Of a stretch of 64,000 nt of DNA, positions 1,488 to 60,820 are shown piece by piece; the first letter of the stretch is position 1, and every line of letters begins with the position of its first letter. Where the stretch lies: assembly GCA_900498135.1 (NCBI GenBank), contig LR026961.1:2476666-2540665 (forward strand), written 5' to 3'. Made by a program: the position numbers and the translations under genes. This DNA comes from an uncultured Desulfatiglans sp. GTDB lineage: Bacteria; Desulfobacterota; DSM-4660; Desulfatiglandales; Desulfatiglandaceae. A model generated the notes under the pieces. The model ran no database searches, was not told the DNA's origin, and saw only the letters and a program-made list of their open reading frames with translations.

Positions 1488-1567
1488 ATGTATCTAATTG
1501 GTAAATGATTTATTTTGTTAATTGCGATATCAATTTGCAAGTTTGCTTTTGCAGAGCTTACTAGATT

Positions 1568-1607
1568 GTGTCCATACGGAAATGATTTCGCGGTAGGACT
1601 AAGTTCC
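1568..1607 (-). repeat. dispersed palindromic repeat, end fragment (copy I)
   Basis: This 40-bp stretch in the 194-bp fliI-fliJ gap matches the outer end of the dispersed repeat family described under copy H: a CCATnCGGAAATG box, then ATTTCGCGGTAGGACT and the start of the next GTTTCC box. The rest of the element is absent, so it is a solo end or a deletion remnant. It lies in the orientation of copies C-G. The sequence around it is AT-rich and shows no gene. Confidence 0.7.
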
Positions 1608-1681
1608 CGAGTAAGAACATAAGTTGTTTTATATTTGCAAAACTTTCTCATTTCTGGATAGTAATCAATTAAGGATATCGA

Positions 1682-7960: not shown

Positions 7961-8610
7961 GAATCCTTCGGGATTGTTCGGCGTGCGAGAGTATTTCATT
8001 TGTGCGCAGGGATTTCAGCCGCTTTTGACTCCGATCCCATCTTTTCCGCGGTGTGGAGATTTTCTGATCTCGTGCCAATGAAGGCCGAAGAAGCTGAACC
8101 GATTGACCGAGAAAACGGCTGCGGAACGGTTCAACCGATGGGGAGGAGCTGTTCGGATCTCGGAATAGCTTCGAGGTTCGTGCGACGCCCCTTCTCGGAT
8201 CTTTCCCGTCTTGAAGACCGTCGATGTTCAAGGCAGTGTCAATGCTTTGACGACTGTCAGGAAAGAATTGACGGTGTGCCACCTATCTAGTTTCCATCCG
8301 GAAATGGTCTTTTTGGCCAATCTCGGCGTCAATCTGCATGTTTGCTTACGCGGAGGCGACCTGTAGGTCGCCTCCGCGCAAGCGCTTGATTTCCTAGATA
8401 TTGGCCAAAAATCCTCATTTCCGGATTGGAAACTCAGTCCTACCGCGAAATCATTTCAGGATGGATACTAATTCGGACAATTCGTGCGGACGCTCGGCAT
8501 GGTCTTTGCGTTATCAAGCACCGAGATTTTCTCGCAGATGATAAGCTTTCGACAAAAGTCTGAATGTTGGGATCTTCGGCCGTTTTGATCGTGCAGCGAG
8601 GAGGATTTCT
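7961..8610. other. 650-bp flbD-motA intergenic region
   Basis: Directly after flbD is a small hairpin AATCC-TTCG-GGATT (7962-7975). Bases 8290-8468 hold repeat copy A. The remaining sequence shows no convincing gene: the only long open frame (8000-8290) is Arg/Asp-rich with no family features. I looked for a sigma-28 promoter before motA and found no TAAA/GCCGATAA pair at proper spacing. Confidence 0.6.
8290..8468 (+). repeat. dispersed palindromic repeat, copy A (no internal module)
   Basis: Full-length 179-bp copy, ends GTTTCCATCC and GGATGGATAC. From outside in, CATCCGGAAATG pairs with CATTTCCGGAT, TTTTTGGCCAA pairs with TTGGCCAAAAA, and the centre is GCGGAGGCGACCT/AGGTCGCCTCCGC (8350-8378). 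A tail of about 37 bp carries a second CATTTC-AGGATGG end. Like copy H it lacks the double-hairpin module. Its orientation is that of copies B, H, J and K. Confidence 0.9.
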
Positions 8611-21853: not shown

Positions 21854-21900
21854 TCTTCATCCCGAAATGGTCTTTTTGGCCAATCGCGGTGTCAATCTGA
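21854..21900 (+). repeat. dispersed palindromic repeat, left-end fragment (copy J)
   Basis: These 47 bp after fliA match the first quarter of copies A/B/H (CATCC-GAAATGGTC, TTTTTGGCCAAT, CGCGGTGTCAATCTG) and then stop abruptly. The fragment has the same orientation as copy B, 336 bp further on; the two flank the small gene at 21946. Confidence 0.8.
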
Positions 21901-21945: not shown

Positions 21946-22236
21946 ATGGTTGGTCCGGTGAGATGGGGGGAGTATTTTGCCCCGATTAGTGCCTCAGGAT
22001 GGGTGAAAAAACCCGACGAAAGGGACGGTGGCCGGGAGAGGCAGCAGTTCGAAGCGTTGATGTATCGTCAAGAGAAGACGGATGATCAACCCGCCGGGAA
22101 CCGCGATCAGGATGATTCGGAGCGAAAGAGGCTTCAGAGGACCTTAGACGCTGACACGGACAGCGGGACCACGCTGCAGGATACGAGCGAAGAAGATGCA
22201 GAGCTTTTGGGCAGACTGGTTGACATTGTTATTTAG
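21946..22236 (+). CDS. small hydrophilic protein of the flagellar cluster, unknown function
   Basis: Possible 96-residue protein with no membrane helix or signal. It starts with a Pro/Trp-containing segment, then is dominated by Arg, Asp, Glu and Gln (residues 20-80), and ends LLGRLVDIVI. Small charged proteins of this kind, ending in a hydrophobic D-I-x-V/I motif, are common between fliA and flgF in related clusters, but I cannot name a family. The final base of its TAG stop is the first base of repeat copy B, so the original end may have been cut off by the repeat. The ribosome site is poor. Coding status is probable, not certain. Confidence 0.5.
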   Translation: MVGPVRWGEYFAPISASGWVKKPDERDGGRERQQFEALMYRQEKTDDQPAGNRDQDDSERKRLQRTLDADTDSGTTLQDTSEEDAELLGRLVDIVI

Positions 22237-22463
22237 TTTCCATCCGGACATGGTCTTTTTGGCCAATCTCGGCGTCAATCTGCGCGTTTGCTTGTGCGGT
22301 GACCTGCAGGTCGCCTCTGCGCAAAAGCTTGATTTTCTTGATATTTGCCAAACTGGGTCTCACAGCTTTGCGGCGGGACTGAGCACCCGAAGGGTGTGAA
22401 CAAAAATCCTCATTTCTGGATTGGAAATTGGGTTCTTCCGGGAAATCATTTCCGGACGGAAAC
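22236..22463 (+). repeat. dispersed palindromic repeat, copy B (one module)
   Basis: 228-bp copy, ends GTTTCCATCC and GGACGGAAAC. The left arm and the central GACCTGCAGGTC palindrome (22310-22321) match copy A. One degraded copy of the double-hairpin module lies at about 22350-22400 in complementary sense. TGTTAT directly follows the right end (22464-22469) and also occurs 3 bp before the left end (22227-22232), a possible decayed target duplication. The 220 bp after it up to 22682 contain no gene I can support. Confidence 0.88.
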
Positions 22464-22682
22464 TGTTATGAAACGGGCTCTTGTCAAATGAAAAGTTCTG
22501 AAAAAAGCTCCTGTTAAATCGGCGCCGGTGTCTGGGACCCTTTGCCGGATAAGGGTTTTCCCGATGGTACCGAAGCCGGCGGTCTAGTCAACAGAAACGG
22601 ATTACGACGGACCAAGCAGCGGATGCGGCTGCGGTAATGTTGCTTGAAGGTCTGGGTGCCGATGGCGGAAAGGAGATGGGCG

Positions 22683-34808: not shown

Positions 34809-35394
34809 TTTTTATCGGATTTGTGGCGATTTTCGGATCCCGAAATGTGTGTGATCAGGAAAAGTTGTTTTTTTGGATAGGGTTTTCAAAAATGCGCTCA
34901 AAATGAAGGATATCCGGCTCTAATGCGGCAGAAGTTTTCTAGATTCCATCCGGAAATGATTTCCCGGTAGAACCCGGTTTCCAATCCGGAAATGAAGATT
35001 TTTTTTACGCGCTGCGCGTGCGCAGTCCCACCGCTTCACGGCGGGTCCCGGTTTGGACAATATCAAGGAAATCATGCCTTTGCGCGGAGGCGACCTGCAG
35101 GTCGGTGCACAACCAATGCACAGACTGACGCCGAGATTGGTCAAAAAGACCATTTCCGGATGGAAACTTTCTATGTGTTTTAGTAATAGGCGTTCCGATA
35201 GTTCAAATATCAAAAAACGGAACGGCATAGAAGGATCGCAGATTTCTCCATTCCATAAGATTTCGATTTGTGCAACGAGATGTACATGAATTTATAATTG
35301 GAGGTGTCAATCTGCCGTTCGACATAACATTCTCTATAGTTCGGATGAGATCTGTGAAGTATTGGGTAGGCAAGCGATTGAAAGGGTATTCAGG
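34809..35394 (+). other. 586-bp HDOD-cheY intergenic region
   Basis: Most of this gap is repeat copy C (34942-35167). The 130 bp before it and the 227 bp after it are rather AT-rich and show no gene. TATAAT occurs around 35292 without a clear -35. No sigma-28 pair was found, so how the cheY-cheX-cheB group is transcribed is not visible. Confidence 0.6.
34942..35167 (-). repeat. dispersed palindromic repeat, copy C (one module, TTTCTA flanks)
   Basis: 226-bp copy, ends GATTCCATCC and GGATGGAAAC. It carries one double-hairpin module with stems CGCGC-TGC-GCGTG and CCCACCGC/CGGCGGG, and the central GACCTGCAGGTC palindrome (35091-35102). The same 6 bases TTTCTA lie immediately outside both ends (34936-34941 and 35168-35173), as a target-site duplication would. 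Orientation is opposite to copies A, B and H. Confidence 0.9.
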
Positions 35395-44626: not shown

Positions 44627-44727
44627 AGGCTTGCTGTGTCCTCTATACCGCTTCAGCAAAAAAGTGCTCGTGTTATGTCGAAGAGGCTGCCGGTCCGAGT
44701 GTCGCAAGTAGATCACTGCTGGCATTA

Positions 44728-44947
44728 TGTCCCTCAGGAAATGACTTCCCCGCATAACCCGTGTTTCAGTCCGGAAAGGAGTGCTTTTTATTTTTTCCTT
44801 TCAAGTGCTTAGCCCCATCCTTTCGGGGTGGGTCCCGCTTTTTTCATGTTCGTGAGATCACGTGGTTGCTGAGACGGCTTGTAGTCCGCCGCACAACCCA
44901 AGGTGCCGATTGACGCCAAGATTGGAAAGACCATTTCCAGATAGAAA
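44728..44947 (-). repeat. dispersed palindromic repeat, copy D (degenerate, one module)
   Basis: About 220 bp that align end to end with copies C and E but with many changes: outer CTCAGGAAATGA and CCATTTCCAGATAGAAA, inner GTTTCAGTCCGGAAAGGAG, one module with CCCATCC-TTTC-GGGGTGGG. That second stem gains an A-T pair where other copies have a mismatch. The central palindrome is largely lost. It lies before the transglycosylase gene; the 248 bp from its end to 45195 show no other feature. Confidence 0.75.
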
Positions 44948-45195
44948 GAAGCATTTATCATGCCAGAGTTCAAGGAGCGTAAAGACCTTCAAAAGCCGTT
45001 TCATCCGGAGCGTTGAAGCGATCTGTTGGCTGGAGCGGCTCTGTGAGGGCGATCGGCTGGAAAGAGCTAGAGTGGCGCTATGCATGGTATACTTTATGCT
45101 TAAAATTCAATAATCGAATGTCTATGCGGATTAGATTGTGGGAGCCGTCTGTTTCGAGATGGAAATTCCCTCGAGGAGTGTTAGGACTTTTCGGA

Positions 45196-47984: not shown

Positions 47985-48298
47985 GTGCAGCACCTCCTCG
48001 TGAGTCAGTTTTGGGTATTCATCCCAAACGGTCGGTGGATGGGCCCGAAAGGTTCCTCGGACGTCCTCCGTCTTTGGCGGGGCTGGAGCGATCCGGGCGA
48101 TGCGCATGGGTGTATGTTCCGCTGCCGGCTGCAGCGGGGCTTCGCATCAGGTGGAGGTCGGATGTGGCGATCATGCGCGCACCCCGAAAGATTTCACGCA
48201 ACGGCACCACCGGAAAAACGGCGCTTGCAGCGCTTCGTGCCGGGATCTCTGAGGGATACTCAGGGAAGAGCAGGAAGTCCAGGAAAATCCTAAAGCAT

Positions 48299-48524
48299 CT
48301 CCATCCGGAAATGATTTTCCGGTATGACCCCGTTTCCAATTCGGAAAGGAATATTTTTCTTTACACGCTGCACGTGCTCAGTCCCACCGCTTTGCGGCGG
48401 GTCCAGGTTTGGCCAGTATCCGGAAAATCGAGCATTTGCTTGGAAGGGACCTAGCGGTCGCCGCACTAGCAAATGCGCAGATCGATGCCGAGATGGGCAA
48501 AAAAGACCATCTCGGGATGGAAAC
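48299..48524 (-). repeat. dispersed palindromic repeat, copy E (one module)
   Basis: 226-bp copy in the orientation of C. Ends CCATCCGGAAATGATT and GGGATGGAAAC. One module: CACGCTGCACGTG (first stem partly open) and CCCACCGC-TTT-GCGGCGGG. Its centre is altered (GACCTAGCGGTC), leaving a 4-bp stem. It sits 107 bp from copy F in the same direction. Confidence 0.88.
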
Positions 48525-48631
48525 TAAGCCGATTGTGTAGCGCATTATGTTATTGACGGCAAGAAAAAATATGCGGGCTGCGGGATTGTGCCGCTAAACC
48601 TCCCGCTCTATGCGCTGTCCTGGTCACGGCA

Positions 48632-48912
48632 TATCCGTCCGGAAATGATTTCGCGGCAAGATTCAGTTTCCAATCCGGAAATGAGGATTTTTCTTTATAC
48701 CCTTCGGGTGCTCAGTCCAACCCCTGCGGGGCGGGTCCCGGTTTCTTCATACCCTTCGGGTGCTCAGCCCCACCGCTTCGCGGCGGGTCCCGGTTTGGCC
48801 AATATCAAGGAAGTCAAGCGTTTGCTTGTAAGGCGACCTGCAGGTCGCCTTACAAGCAAACGTGCAGATTGATGCCGAGATTGGCCAAAAAGACCATTTC
48901 CGGGTTGGAAAC
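48632..48912 (-). repeat. dispersed palindromic repeat, copy F (two modules, 44-bp palindrome)
   Basis: 281-bp copy with two tandem double-hairpin modules (about 48689-48742 and 48743-48797), which differ in their second stem: CCCC-TGC-GGGG in one, CCGC-TTC-GCGG in the other. The centre 48819-48862 is a perfect 44-bp palindrome; in copies A and H the outer part of this stem is different. The next gene, trkH, ends 75 bp away. Confidence 0.9.
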
Positions 48913-48987
48913 CAGGGTGTTTCGAACCTCCGGCTGCGGGCTCGGCGCCGAGAGGCACAGCGCAGCGCCGCCGCTGCAAGATAGCGC

Positions 48988-51794: not shown

Positions 51795-52060
51795 GACTGG
51801 CCTCCTTGCGAGAGAAGCATTCGCCTGCAGGATTGGTCATGGCTGTAGCGGATCGCTTATTACTAAGAGAGCGCGGGCAGAAAGTCAACTTCCAACCCGC
51901 CCTGGGCCCGCGAAGTGTTTTGCTGATCTCGCGTCGCAGCGGACGCATCCGTTTTCGACCAGCCTTGCATCATGCCAGTCCCCGAAGGTTGAAAATGCTG
52001 GACAACATAGGGAATTCGATGATATTAATAACAGTTTTCGTATGTGCAAACACTTGGATC

Positions 52061-52341
52061 GTGTCCATTCGGGAAACGATTTCCCGGTAGGACCCAGTTT
52101 CCAATCCGGAAATGAGGATTTTTCTTTACACCCTTCGGGTGTTCAGTCCCACCCCTGCGGGGCGGGTCCCGGTTTCTTCACGGCCTTCGGGTGCTCAGTC
52201 CCACCGCTTCGCGACGGGTCCCGGTTTGGCCAATATCAGGAAAATCAAGCCTTTGCGCGGAGGCGACCTGCGGGTCGCCGCACAAGCAAACGTGCAGATG
52301 GACACCGAGATTGGCCAAAAAGACCATTTCCGGATGGAAGC
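52061..52341 (-). repeat. dispersed palindromic repeat, copy G (two modules)
   Basis: 281-bp copy with two tandem modules, like copy F. First stems are CACCC-TTC-GGGTG; second stems CCCC-TGC-GGGG and CCGC-TTC-GCGA. The centre is GCGGAGGCGACCTGCGGGTC, a slightly weakened palindrome. It fills most of the space between divergent trkA and the heptose kinase gene. Confidence 0.9.
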
Positions 52342-52350
52342 TGTTAAAGT

Positions 52351-52459
52351 AAGGAAAATCAACCGTCGTTTGTGCTGGGATGACCTGTCGGTCGCTGGGC
52401 AGGCAAAGGTGCAGATGGACGCCGAGATCGGCCAGAAAGCCCCTTCCCGGATCGGAAAC
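52351..52459 (-). repeat. half copy of the dispersed repeat next to copy G (G2)
   Basis: These 109 bp repeat the right half of copy G (52240-52341) in the same direction with many substitutions: AAGGAAAATCAA, ATGACCTGTCGGTCGC, GGTGCAGATGGACGCCGAGA, then CGGATCGGAAAC. It ends 24 bp before the kinase start codon. It looks like an older tandem copy or a remnant of a previous element. Confidence 0.75.
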
Positions 52460-52483
52460 GAATAGATTCAGGAGCAGGAAGCC

Positions 52484-58066: not shown

Positions 58067-58084
58067 AATCCCTTCTTTCTATCA

Positions 58085-58260
58085 GTTTCCATCCGGAAAT
58101 GGTCTTTTTGGCCAATCTCGGCGTCAATCTGCACGTTTGCTTGTGCGGCGACCTGCAGGTCGCCTCCGCGCAAACGCTTGATTTCCTTGATATTGGCCAA
58201 AAATCCTCATTTCCGGATTGGAAACTGAGTTCTACCGCGAAATCATTTTCGGATGGAAAC
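58085..58260 (+). repeat. dispersed palindromic repeat, copy H (no module, best conserved)
   Basis: 176-bp copy and a good reference: GTTTCCATCCGGAAATGG, TCTTTTTGGCCAATCTCGGC, GTCAATCTGCACGTTTGC, central GCGGCGACCTGCAGGTCGC, CGCAAACGCTTGATTTCC, TTGATATTGGCCAAAAAT, CATTTCCGGATTGGAAAC, and the tail to GGATGGAAAC. TCTAT occurs right after the right end (58261-58265) and in the left flank (58078-58082), a possible decayed duplication. Confidence 0.92.
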
Positions 58261-58603
58261 TCTATTGGTGCATCGCCGGATGGCCTCCGTCGGGCGATGT
58301 GGATTCACGAGCACGCGGGGATCTGGAATCCGGCCGCCCTTCCACCGATGGCGGGTTGCAGTTGCTTTGCCGCCGGCGGCCGCGCAGCCCCGCGTCCCCA
58401 ACGCTGTTTTCGGATGAAGATGGTATAGAGGATTTGCCGCGCCGAGGCAAACAATTCCCTTGTCAGCGTGCATAAATTCCTTAAAATCATCCGCACAGAC
58501 AGCTTTTGACCCCCGTTCCCACGGACTCCCCCGTTATGCTGCCATGAATCTTCCGCGGCGCCCCCCGCTGATCAGAGCCTTCCGGAAGCAGCCGGAGACG
58601 AAA
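58261..58603. other. 343-bp region between repeat H and the PilB-like gene
   Basis: No supported gene or strong signal. In-frame ATGs at 58460 and 58544 could lengthen the PilB-like protein but have no ribosome site, and the encoded residues are not family-like. Confidence 0.5.
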
Positions 58604-60409: not shown

Positions 60410-60820
60410 GAAAGGGAATCGTAAGGCGCAGAAGACCGGACTCTGAAAAACAGCCCGCGGACGAGTATATCATGATCGGTGAAAAAGATTTTTCTGCGAG
60501 GTCGGATTCCCTCGACCGGCGGTCGAGCAGGTGGAAATGCCGGTCTGTTCGAGCGGGTCGCCGGCAAGGAAAAAGCCTTGTTTTTAGCCGGGGTTCTTGG
60601 CATTTTATATCATTTGTGTCTGCAAAACGCTTTTTTCGCCCATCCCGGTGTCCATTCGCATTTCTGCTGGCGAAGCGATCCGCGGATCGCCCCGCGCAAA
60701 TGCCTCGTTTCCCCCGTGCAGGGGCCCGATTTTGCCGGATGGGAAATCTGGCCGGTGGGGGAGTCTTTCCCCCGGCTGTCTGACACCCGATATCGGAGAA
60801 ACAGGACAGAGAAGGTCCCC
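60410..60820. other. 411-bp gap with a very old repeat copy
   Basis: Bases 60631-60715 are diverged repeat copy K. The rest has no visible gene; an open frame from 60479 continuous with the EIIA gene crosses the repeat and lacks family sequence. Confidence 0.55.
60631..60715 (+). repeat. dispersed palindromic repeat, ancient copy K
   Basis: Hand alignment to copy H from TTTTTGGCC to GATTTCC gives 59 identities in 81 bases with one gap. The 16-bp centre is GCGATCCGCGGATCGC (60675-60690), still a perfect palindrome although two pairs differ from the usual GCGACCTGCAGGTCGC. The outer ends are not recognisable. Confidence 0.75.

Follow-up and report, generated by a model that had tools for sequence, protein, structure and literature searches.

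Based on the comparisons reported here, we suggest that copy K, an old repeat copy in the 64,000-nucleotide stretch of Desulfatiglans DNA that was analysed (the window), is probably a decaying copy of a MITE of ~180 bp mobilised in trans, and that the hairpin of this element is kept in mobile lineages and lost in resident ones. This is the best explanation overall for the data. Copy K itself is an old, immobile, decaying MITE copy that is now losing its hairpin.

Copy K belongs to a family of mobile, non-autonomous elements

The family members in the window and their parts are, in window coordinates:

60600 to 60745, plus strand: copy K, an old and decayed MITE located upstream of a helix-turn-helix/PTS-like gene
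60675 to 60690, no strand assigned: central palindrome of copy K, at the tip of hairpin A, with the loop at positions 7-10
58084 to 58261, plus strand: full-length MITE copy close to the consensus; the sister species lacks it at the orthologous site
58084 to 58226, plus strand: hairpin A of the near-consensus copy, ~142 nt (MFE of the family consensus -72.6 kcal/mol)
58227 to 58261, plus strand: right-hand segment of the near-consensus copy, ending in the terminal inverted repeat
8287 to 8473, plus strand: full-length copy
22233 to 22467, plus strand: copy with an internal insertion
34937 to 35170, minus strand: copy with an internal insertion
44725 to 44950, minus strand: decayed copy
48292 to 48914, minus strand: two adjacent copies
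52056 to 52460, minus strand: a copy and a second, partial copy
1563 to 1610, minus strand: right-end fragment
21854 to 21899, plus strand: left-end fragment

The centre of copy K at 60675-60690 reads GCGATCCGCGGATCGC, as the sequence-only reading had given it, and its four substitutions relative to the usual centre GCGACCTGCAGGTCGC indeed form two complementary pairs. Within the window, the usual centre occurs exactly at 48833 and 58148 and with at most one mismatch at 8356, 22299, 35090 and 52263. Copy K aligns with the best repeat copies at ~73% identity over 82 columns (E ~1e-5) and is, therefore, a true family member. The earlier count of 59 matches in 81 bases to copy H is consistent with this value, but an ungapped comparison with 58084-58261 did not give 59/81.

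The repeat is a mobile, non-autonomous element, i.e. a MITE. It is ~180 bp long; a single long hairpin with imperfect pairing (A) takes up the left 142 nt and is followed by a short right-hand segment that carries the right end and forms a clean hairpin in other genera. The near-consensus copy at 58084-58261 folds with an MFE of -81 kcal/mol (z -8.7). In other genomes, copies from 119 contigs define sharp ends, GTTTCCATCC on one side and GGATGGAAACT or GGATGGACACT on the other, and the elements have the terminal inverted repeats of a MITE (GTTTCCATCC..GGATGGAAAC) at a length of 140-220 bp. An exact 5-bp target duplication with the consensus ARYTA, in the target context YT-ARYTA-R, flanks 40 of the 71 copies having both ends; in the fetched sequence, the end pairs with matching duplications are all 140-220 bp apart, except for one spurious pair of 4.2 kb. 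In an alignment of 544 kb of the own genome with 390 kb of the sister species, 11 own copies have an unoccupied site in the sister species and five sites are empty in the reverse direction. For the copy at 58084, the junction of the empty orthologous site is seen in the sister species. The own genome, a single contig of 4.80 Mb, holds 101 repeat matches, and matches are present in 18 of the 41 genomes searched, the other repeat-bearing genomes belonging mostly to the Desulfobacterota. A search of plasmid and phage collections for the repeat gave no match.

Because of its size of ~180 bp and its 5-bp duplication, the repeat is not a REP/BIME element mobilised by a RAYT, which has a hairpin of 20-40 bp and no target duplication. 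RAYT-like Y1 transposases (PF01797) have six matches in the own genome and are found in 36 of the 41 genomes, with the repeat present or absent.

Three further observations concern the surroundings of the copies. Hairpin-rich spacers (CAGTCCCACCGCTTCGCGGCGGGTCCCGG) within four MITE copies (L241, L242, L245 and L246) represent a second, nested repeat family. At one locus, MITE copies are present in both species in apparently opposite orientation (own contig, G000:C1, near 2419689; sister species, G001:C2:51680-52351). Finally, at about 2549727-2553507 of the own contig (window +73062), there is a 3.8-kb insertion without a counterpart in the sister species; it has a GCTCAT direct repeat at its flanks and is unrelated to the MITE ends.

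A likely autonomous partner

The own genome has 20 DDE_Tnp_1 matches, which we used to find a partner via its transposase family; one of them lies in an insertion sequence of 1.69 kb (L273) with the ends GTTTCCATCCGGAAA..TTTCCGGATGGAAACT and the duplication AAATA. This element and the MITE have the same 15-bp ends and follow the same 5-bp duplication rule, as expected of an autonomous element and its MITE, and L273 is thus the likely autonomous partner. Its product of 455 aa scores 438.9 bits against the ISNCY model (NCBIfam NF033593; cut-off 325) and, therefore, belongs to this family. In this respect the partner resembles curated ISNCY-family elements, while the MITE differs from them in having no transposase and in having an internal hairpin that is absent from the insertion sequence. 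The partner is present at three loci of the own genome; the two further copies are 96% identical, and no matching duplication was found at their flanks. In another genus, a transposase homologue with 66% identity is flanked by the related ends GTGTCCATCC..GGATGCACACT and an AATTA duplication. At the threshold used, no such transposase gene was detected in the sister genome, which has many MITEs, or in most MITE-carrying relatives. A literature search found no publication linking ISNCY or ISDol1 to the present repeat.

Stem changes are compensated between lineages but not in resident copies

The sequence-only reading had attributed the paired changes in copy K to selection for the stem or to a repair process preserving it, and had proposed a covariation test. 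In an alignment of 78 sequences, and with a tree-aware null in which substitutions are re-placed at random on the same tree, three column pairs reach E<0.05, and all three lie within the hairpin. The structure used was derived from averaged pair probabilities, RNAalifold by itself having yielded nothing usable across genera. The 36 disjoint nearest copy pairs, which diverge by 5-25%, have 246 one-sided changes; their WC-to-WC doubles number 42, compared to a permutation mean of 7.4 and a maximum of 15 in 1000 permutations. Within the own genus, 57 WC cells are changed on both sides against 16.9 expected, in a count that ignores shared ancestry. Covariation is thus a property of the family, while copy K turns out to be poor evidence for it.

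By contrast, 17 orthologous resident pairs from the two species (≤25% divergence) have 185 one-sided changes and only two WC-to-WC doubles against 2.9 expected, with the main caution that alignments of decayed copies are imperfect and that a small number of pairs may not be orthologous in the strict sense. The smaller set of 12 orthologue pairs has 126 one-sided changes and a single WC-to-WC double. The difference between the lineage set and the resident set is highly significant (Fisher p = 5e-8). The sister-species copy at G001 C2:48730 illustrates the decay: it retains the lineage-type centre GCGTAC..GTACGC, while its orthologue in the own genome has decayed to GCGTGC..CGTTGC with loss of stem pairs.

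These data also bear on a purely mutational account, in which one arm of a quasi-palindrome is rewritten after the other, through template switching or cruciform repair, and paired changes thereby arise in resident copies, including copy K. In two copies (L097 and L141) the central stem is wholly swapped for a different, still perfectly paired stem, as arm-copying would produce, and in the freestanding Geobacter copies described below double-changed cells (53) far exceed one-sided wobble states (4), which also fits. However, such a process should leave its traces in resident orthologues, where compensated doubles are at chance level, and near-perfect resident palindromes have acquired single changes only. 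We regard arm-copying as improbable.

Copy K is losing its hairpin

In the sister species, the orthologue of copy K has the centre GCGGTAGTCTGCGGACCGC. It shares the 5/12 change (T-A), which, therefore, is older than the species split. Of the two changed pairs that the sequence-only reading described as matched, this one stands. The other, 7/10, falls within the predicted hairpin's tetraloop, TGCA, and for this reason does not count as a stem pair; a self-complementary tetraloop is present in one of 65 copies from other genera. Since the split, 19 of the 50 comparable stem pairs of copy K have been altered, and exactly one of these changes is a WC-to-WC double (pair 4/13, A-T vs G-C, in the centre). 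Copy K and its orthologue are 75.8% identical, as opposed to 87.9% and 97.3% in the intergenic sequence on its two sides, making copy K the fastest-diverging stretch of its intergenic gap. Its fold is no better than that of shuffled sequence (z -0.27), while the sister-species orthologue still folds better than shuffles (z -5.8). Together, the chance-level doubles among residents, the stem changes in copy K and its fast divergence leave repair of resident copies unsupported; a copy that is losing its hairpin provides no evidence for such a process.

Local selection on copy K fares even less well. The copy lies just upstream of a gene and could have been recruited by the host locus, e.g. to serve the PTS-like gene downstream as a leader structure, and the strong fold of the sister-species orthologue would agree with this. 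However, copy K is the least conserved part of the gap and folds like a shuffled sequence, and it is the leader adjoining the downstream gene, unlike copy K, that is nearly invariant between the species. Recruitment by the host is, therefore, very unlikely.

How, then, did copy K come by a perfect palindrome? According to simulation, a perfect 16-bp centre with at least two paired changes has a probability of about 5-8e-4 per decayed copy; given exactly four substitutions, the probability of a perfect centre is 0.0029. In the own genus, 20 of the 101 centres have at least four substitutions; they keep on average 3.7 of six stem pairs, and copy K is the sole perfect palindrome among them. Mere coincidence in GC-rich sequence would be in line with the ~0.9 perfect 16-bp palindromes expected by chance per 64 kb, i.e. 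per window, and with one of the two pairs being loop sequence. Yet the palindrome sits exactly at the family centre and its 5/12 change is common to the orthologue, and we find coincidence as the whole account rather unlikely. Instead, the perfect palindrome reads as part inheritance, of the paired change that pre-dates the split, and part chance. Several observations run counter to our preferred explanation of copy K as a decaying copy of a MITE mobilised in trans. A perfect centre with two complementary doubles is improbable for any single decayed copy (~6e-4). The first 12 orthologue pairs have a single WC-to-WC double, and it is precisely pair 4/13 in the centre of copy K. The sister-species orthologue has retained a fold better than that of shuffles, two of the three insertion sequence copies have no matching duplication, and the transposase is absent from the sister genome and most MITE-carrying relatives. 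The comparison of G-T and A-C mismatches described below also gives opposite answers in two data sets.

A proposed model for maintenance of the hairpin

In the model that we propose, an ISNCY-family DDE transposase would recognise the shared 15-bp terminal repeats (GTTTCCATCCGGAAA) and make the 5-bp target duplication. The MITE, most of which is one long hairpin, is presumably mobilised in trans by this transposase, as suggested by its ends, duplication, empty sites and partner. In lineages that still yield new copies, substitutions in the stem are compensated, as seen in the lineage comparison, and centres have diverged between lineages without losing their pairing. Probably, amplification or tolerance is limited to copies that retain the ability to fold. 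When a copy becomes immobile, compensation ends and the stem decays by single changes, as in the 17 orthologous copies. Compensation between lineages and its lack in residents point to a filter on which copies propagate, and this filter may be the fold itself, e.g. by bringing the two ends close to each other or by making an insertion tolerable. In other words, maintenance of the structure acts on still-moving lineages, most likely via selection for spreading hairpins. Selection for the stem, as the sequence-only reading had it, is in this sense retained among mobile lineages but not as local selection on copy K.

Comparing compensation at the level of lineages with that in resident orthologues makes it possible to tell whether a structure is maintained by transposition or by the host. 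Moreover, the present MITE family, for which empty sites, many lineages and a probable autonomous partner are at hand, allows one to test what an internal hairpin contributes to the spread of a transposon.

Relation to other mini-elements and to the Geobacter core hairpin

The bcr1 elements are mobile, as is the MITE described here. Both are also of similar size and have a conserved secondary structure, bcr1 of the Bacillus cereus group being about 150-170 bp long (PMC2267715, citing Okstad 2004). However, the sequences and host groups are unrelated. Among prokaryotic MITEs, Chunjie and QMITE2 resemble the present element in size, terminal repeats, target duplication, intergenic multicopy occurrence and a stable fold. 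The present MITE differs from both in spanning many genera, with stems that are lineage-specific yet always paired, and in its layout, in which the left end recurs internally in inverted form. Chunjie, a MITE of 178-235 bp in Geobacter uraniireducens (summarised in the review PMC10969869), may be the same family in another species.

A further likeness is to 24 intergenic 'predicted short RNA elements' of Geobacter metallireducens with the central palindrome GRCGTAGCGCTGCTACGCC, one of which is conserved between two species (Aklujkar et al. 2009, PMC2700814). This palindrome lies inside the same core hairpin. The exact GRCGTAGCGCTGCTACGCC motif occurs in this core context in three Geobacter-group genomes (G041, G042 and G043), which thus contain the family reported in 2009, while the lineage centre of the window copies differs from GRCGTAGCGCTGCTACGCC. 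The available text of PMC2700814 deals with predicted RNAs in one species and makes no mention of transposon ends, target duplication, a partner insertion sequence or compensation at the level of lineages. In the Geobacter group, the core has three settings: with MITE ends, with GTTGTTGAAAAAC ends, and freestanding. The core has an asymmetric internal loop that hardly varies, CTTGTGCGG/CCTCCGCG. The outer stems of the freestanding copies are locus-specific: an arm pairs better with its counterpart in the same copy than with arms from other copies (permutation P 5e-5). Their 53 double-changed cells compare to 16.8 after shuffling, with 0 of 500 shuffles as high, in an alignment that includes one MITE copy from the window.

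These properties raise the possibility that the hairpin is a functional RNA, encoded by host or element, that the MITE carries as cargo, with covariation arising from RNA folding. This would replace the selection step of our model and leave the identity of copy K as it is. The correspondence to the Geobacter predicted short RNA, the freestanding copies with their complementary outer stems and strong covariation, and the nearly invariant internal loop would all suit such an RNA. On the other hand, the resident copies analysed lack compensation, no Rfam family matches (there is no gathering match in the window, and the Geobacter copies give sub-threshold matches only), and neither strand has a consistent G-U bias: a comparison of G-T and A-C mismatches, which bears on a single-stranded form, had opposite outcomes across genera (105 A-C vs 49 G-T) and in the own genus (92 A-C vs 130 G-T). 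We consider a functional RNA possible but less probable than selection for spreading hairpins.

With similar reserve, we speculate that the core (CTTGTGCGG..stem..CCTCCGCG, stem of 100-140 nt) could be an independent structured unit, as RNA or single-stranded DNA, that is freestanding in Geobacter with locus-specific outer stems and is cargo of MITEs whose ends are of two or more unrelated kinds, aiding the spread or tolerance of its carriers. Such an advantage, if real, would account for the covariation of stems in mobile lineages and for their decay in copies that no longer move. Should the core prove to be a structured RNA in its own right that unrelated elements carry, the family reported in 2009, which Rfam lacks, would merit its own description.

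The freestanding Geobacter-group cores (L247-L249, L251, L252, L254 and L301-L307), which have no transposon ends and have complementary, locus-specific outer stems, often lie directly 3' of stop codons; in Geobacter sulfurreducens, for instance, a freestanding copy is located between dapB and dapL. The same core is found in 11 elements with the end GTTGTTGAAAAAC (L250, L253, L255, L256, L291, L293, L295, L296 and L298-L300), and one of these, L253, has an apparent flanking direct repeat of ~8 bp.
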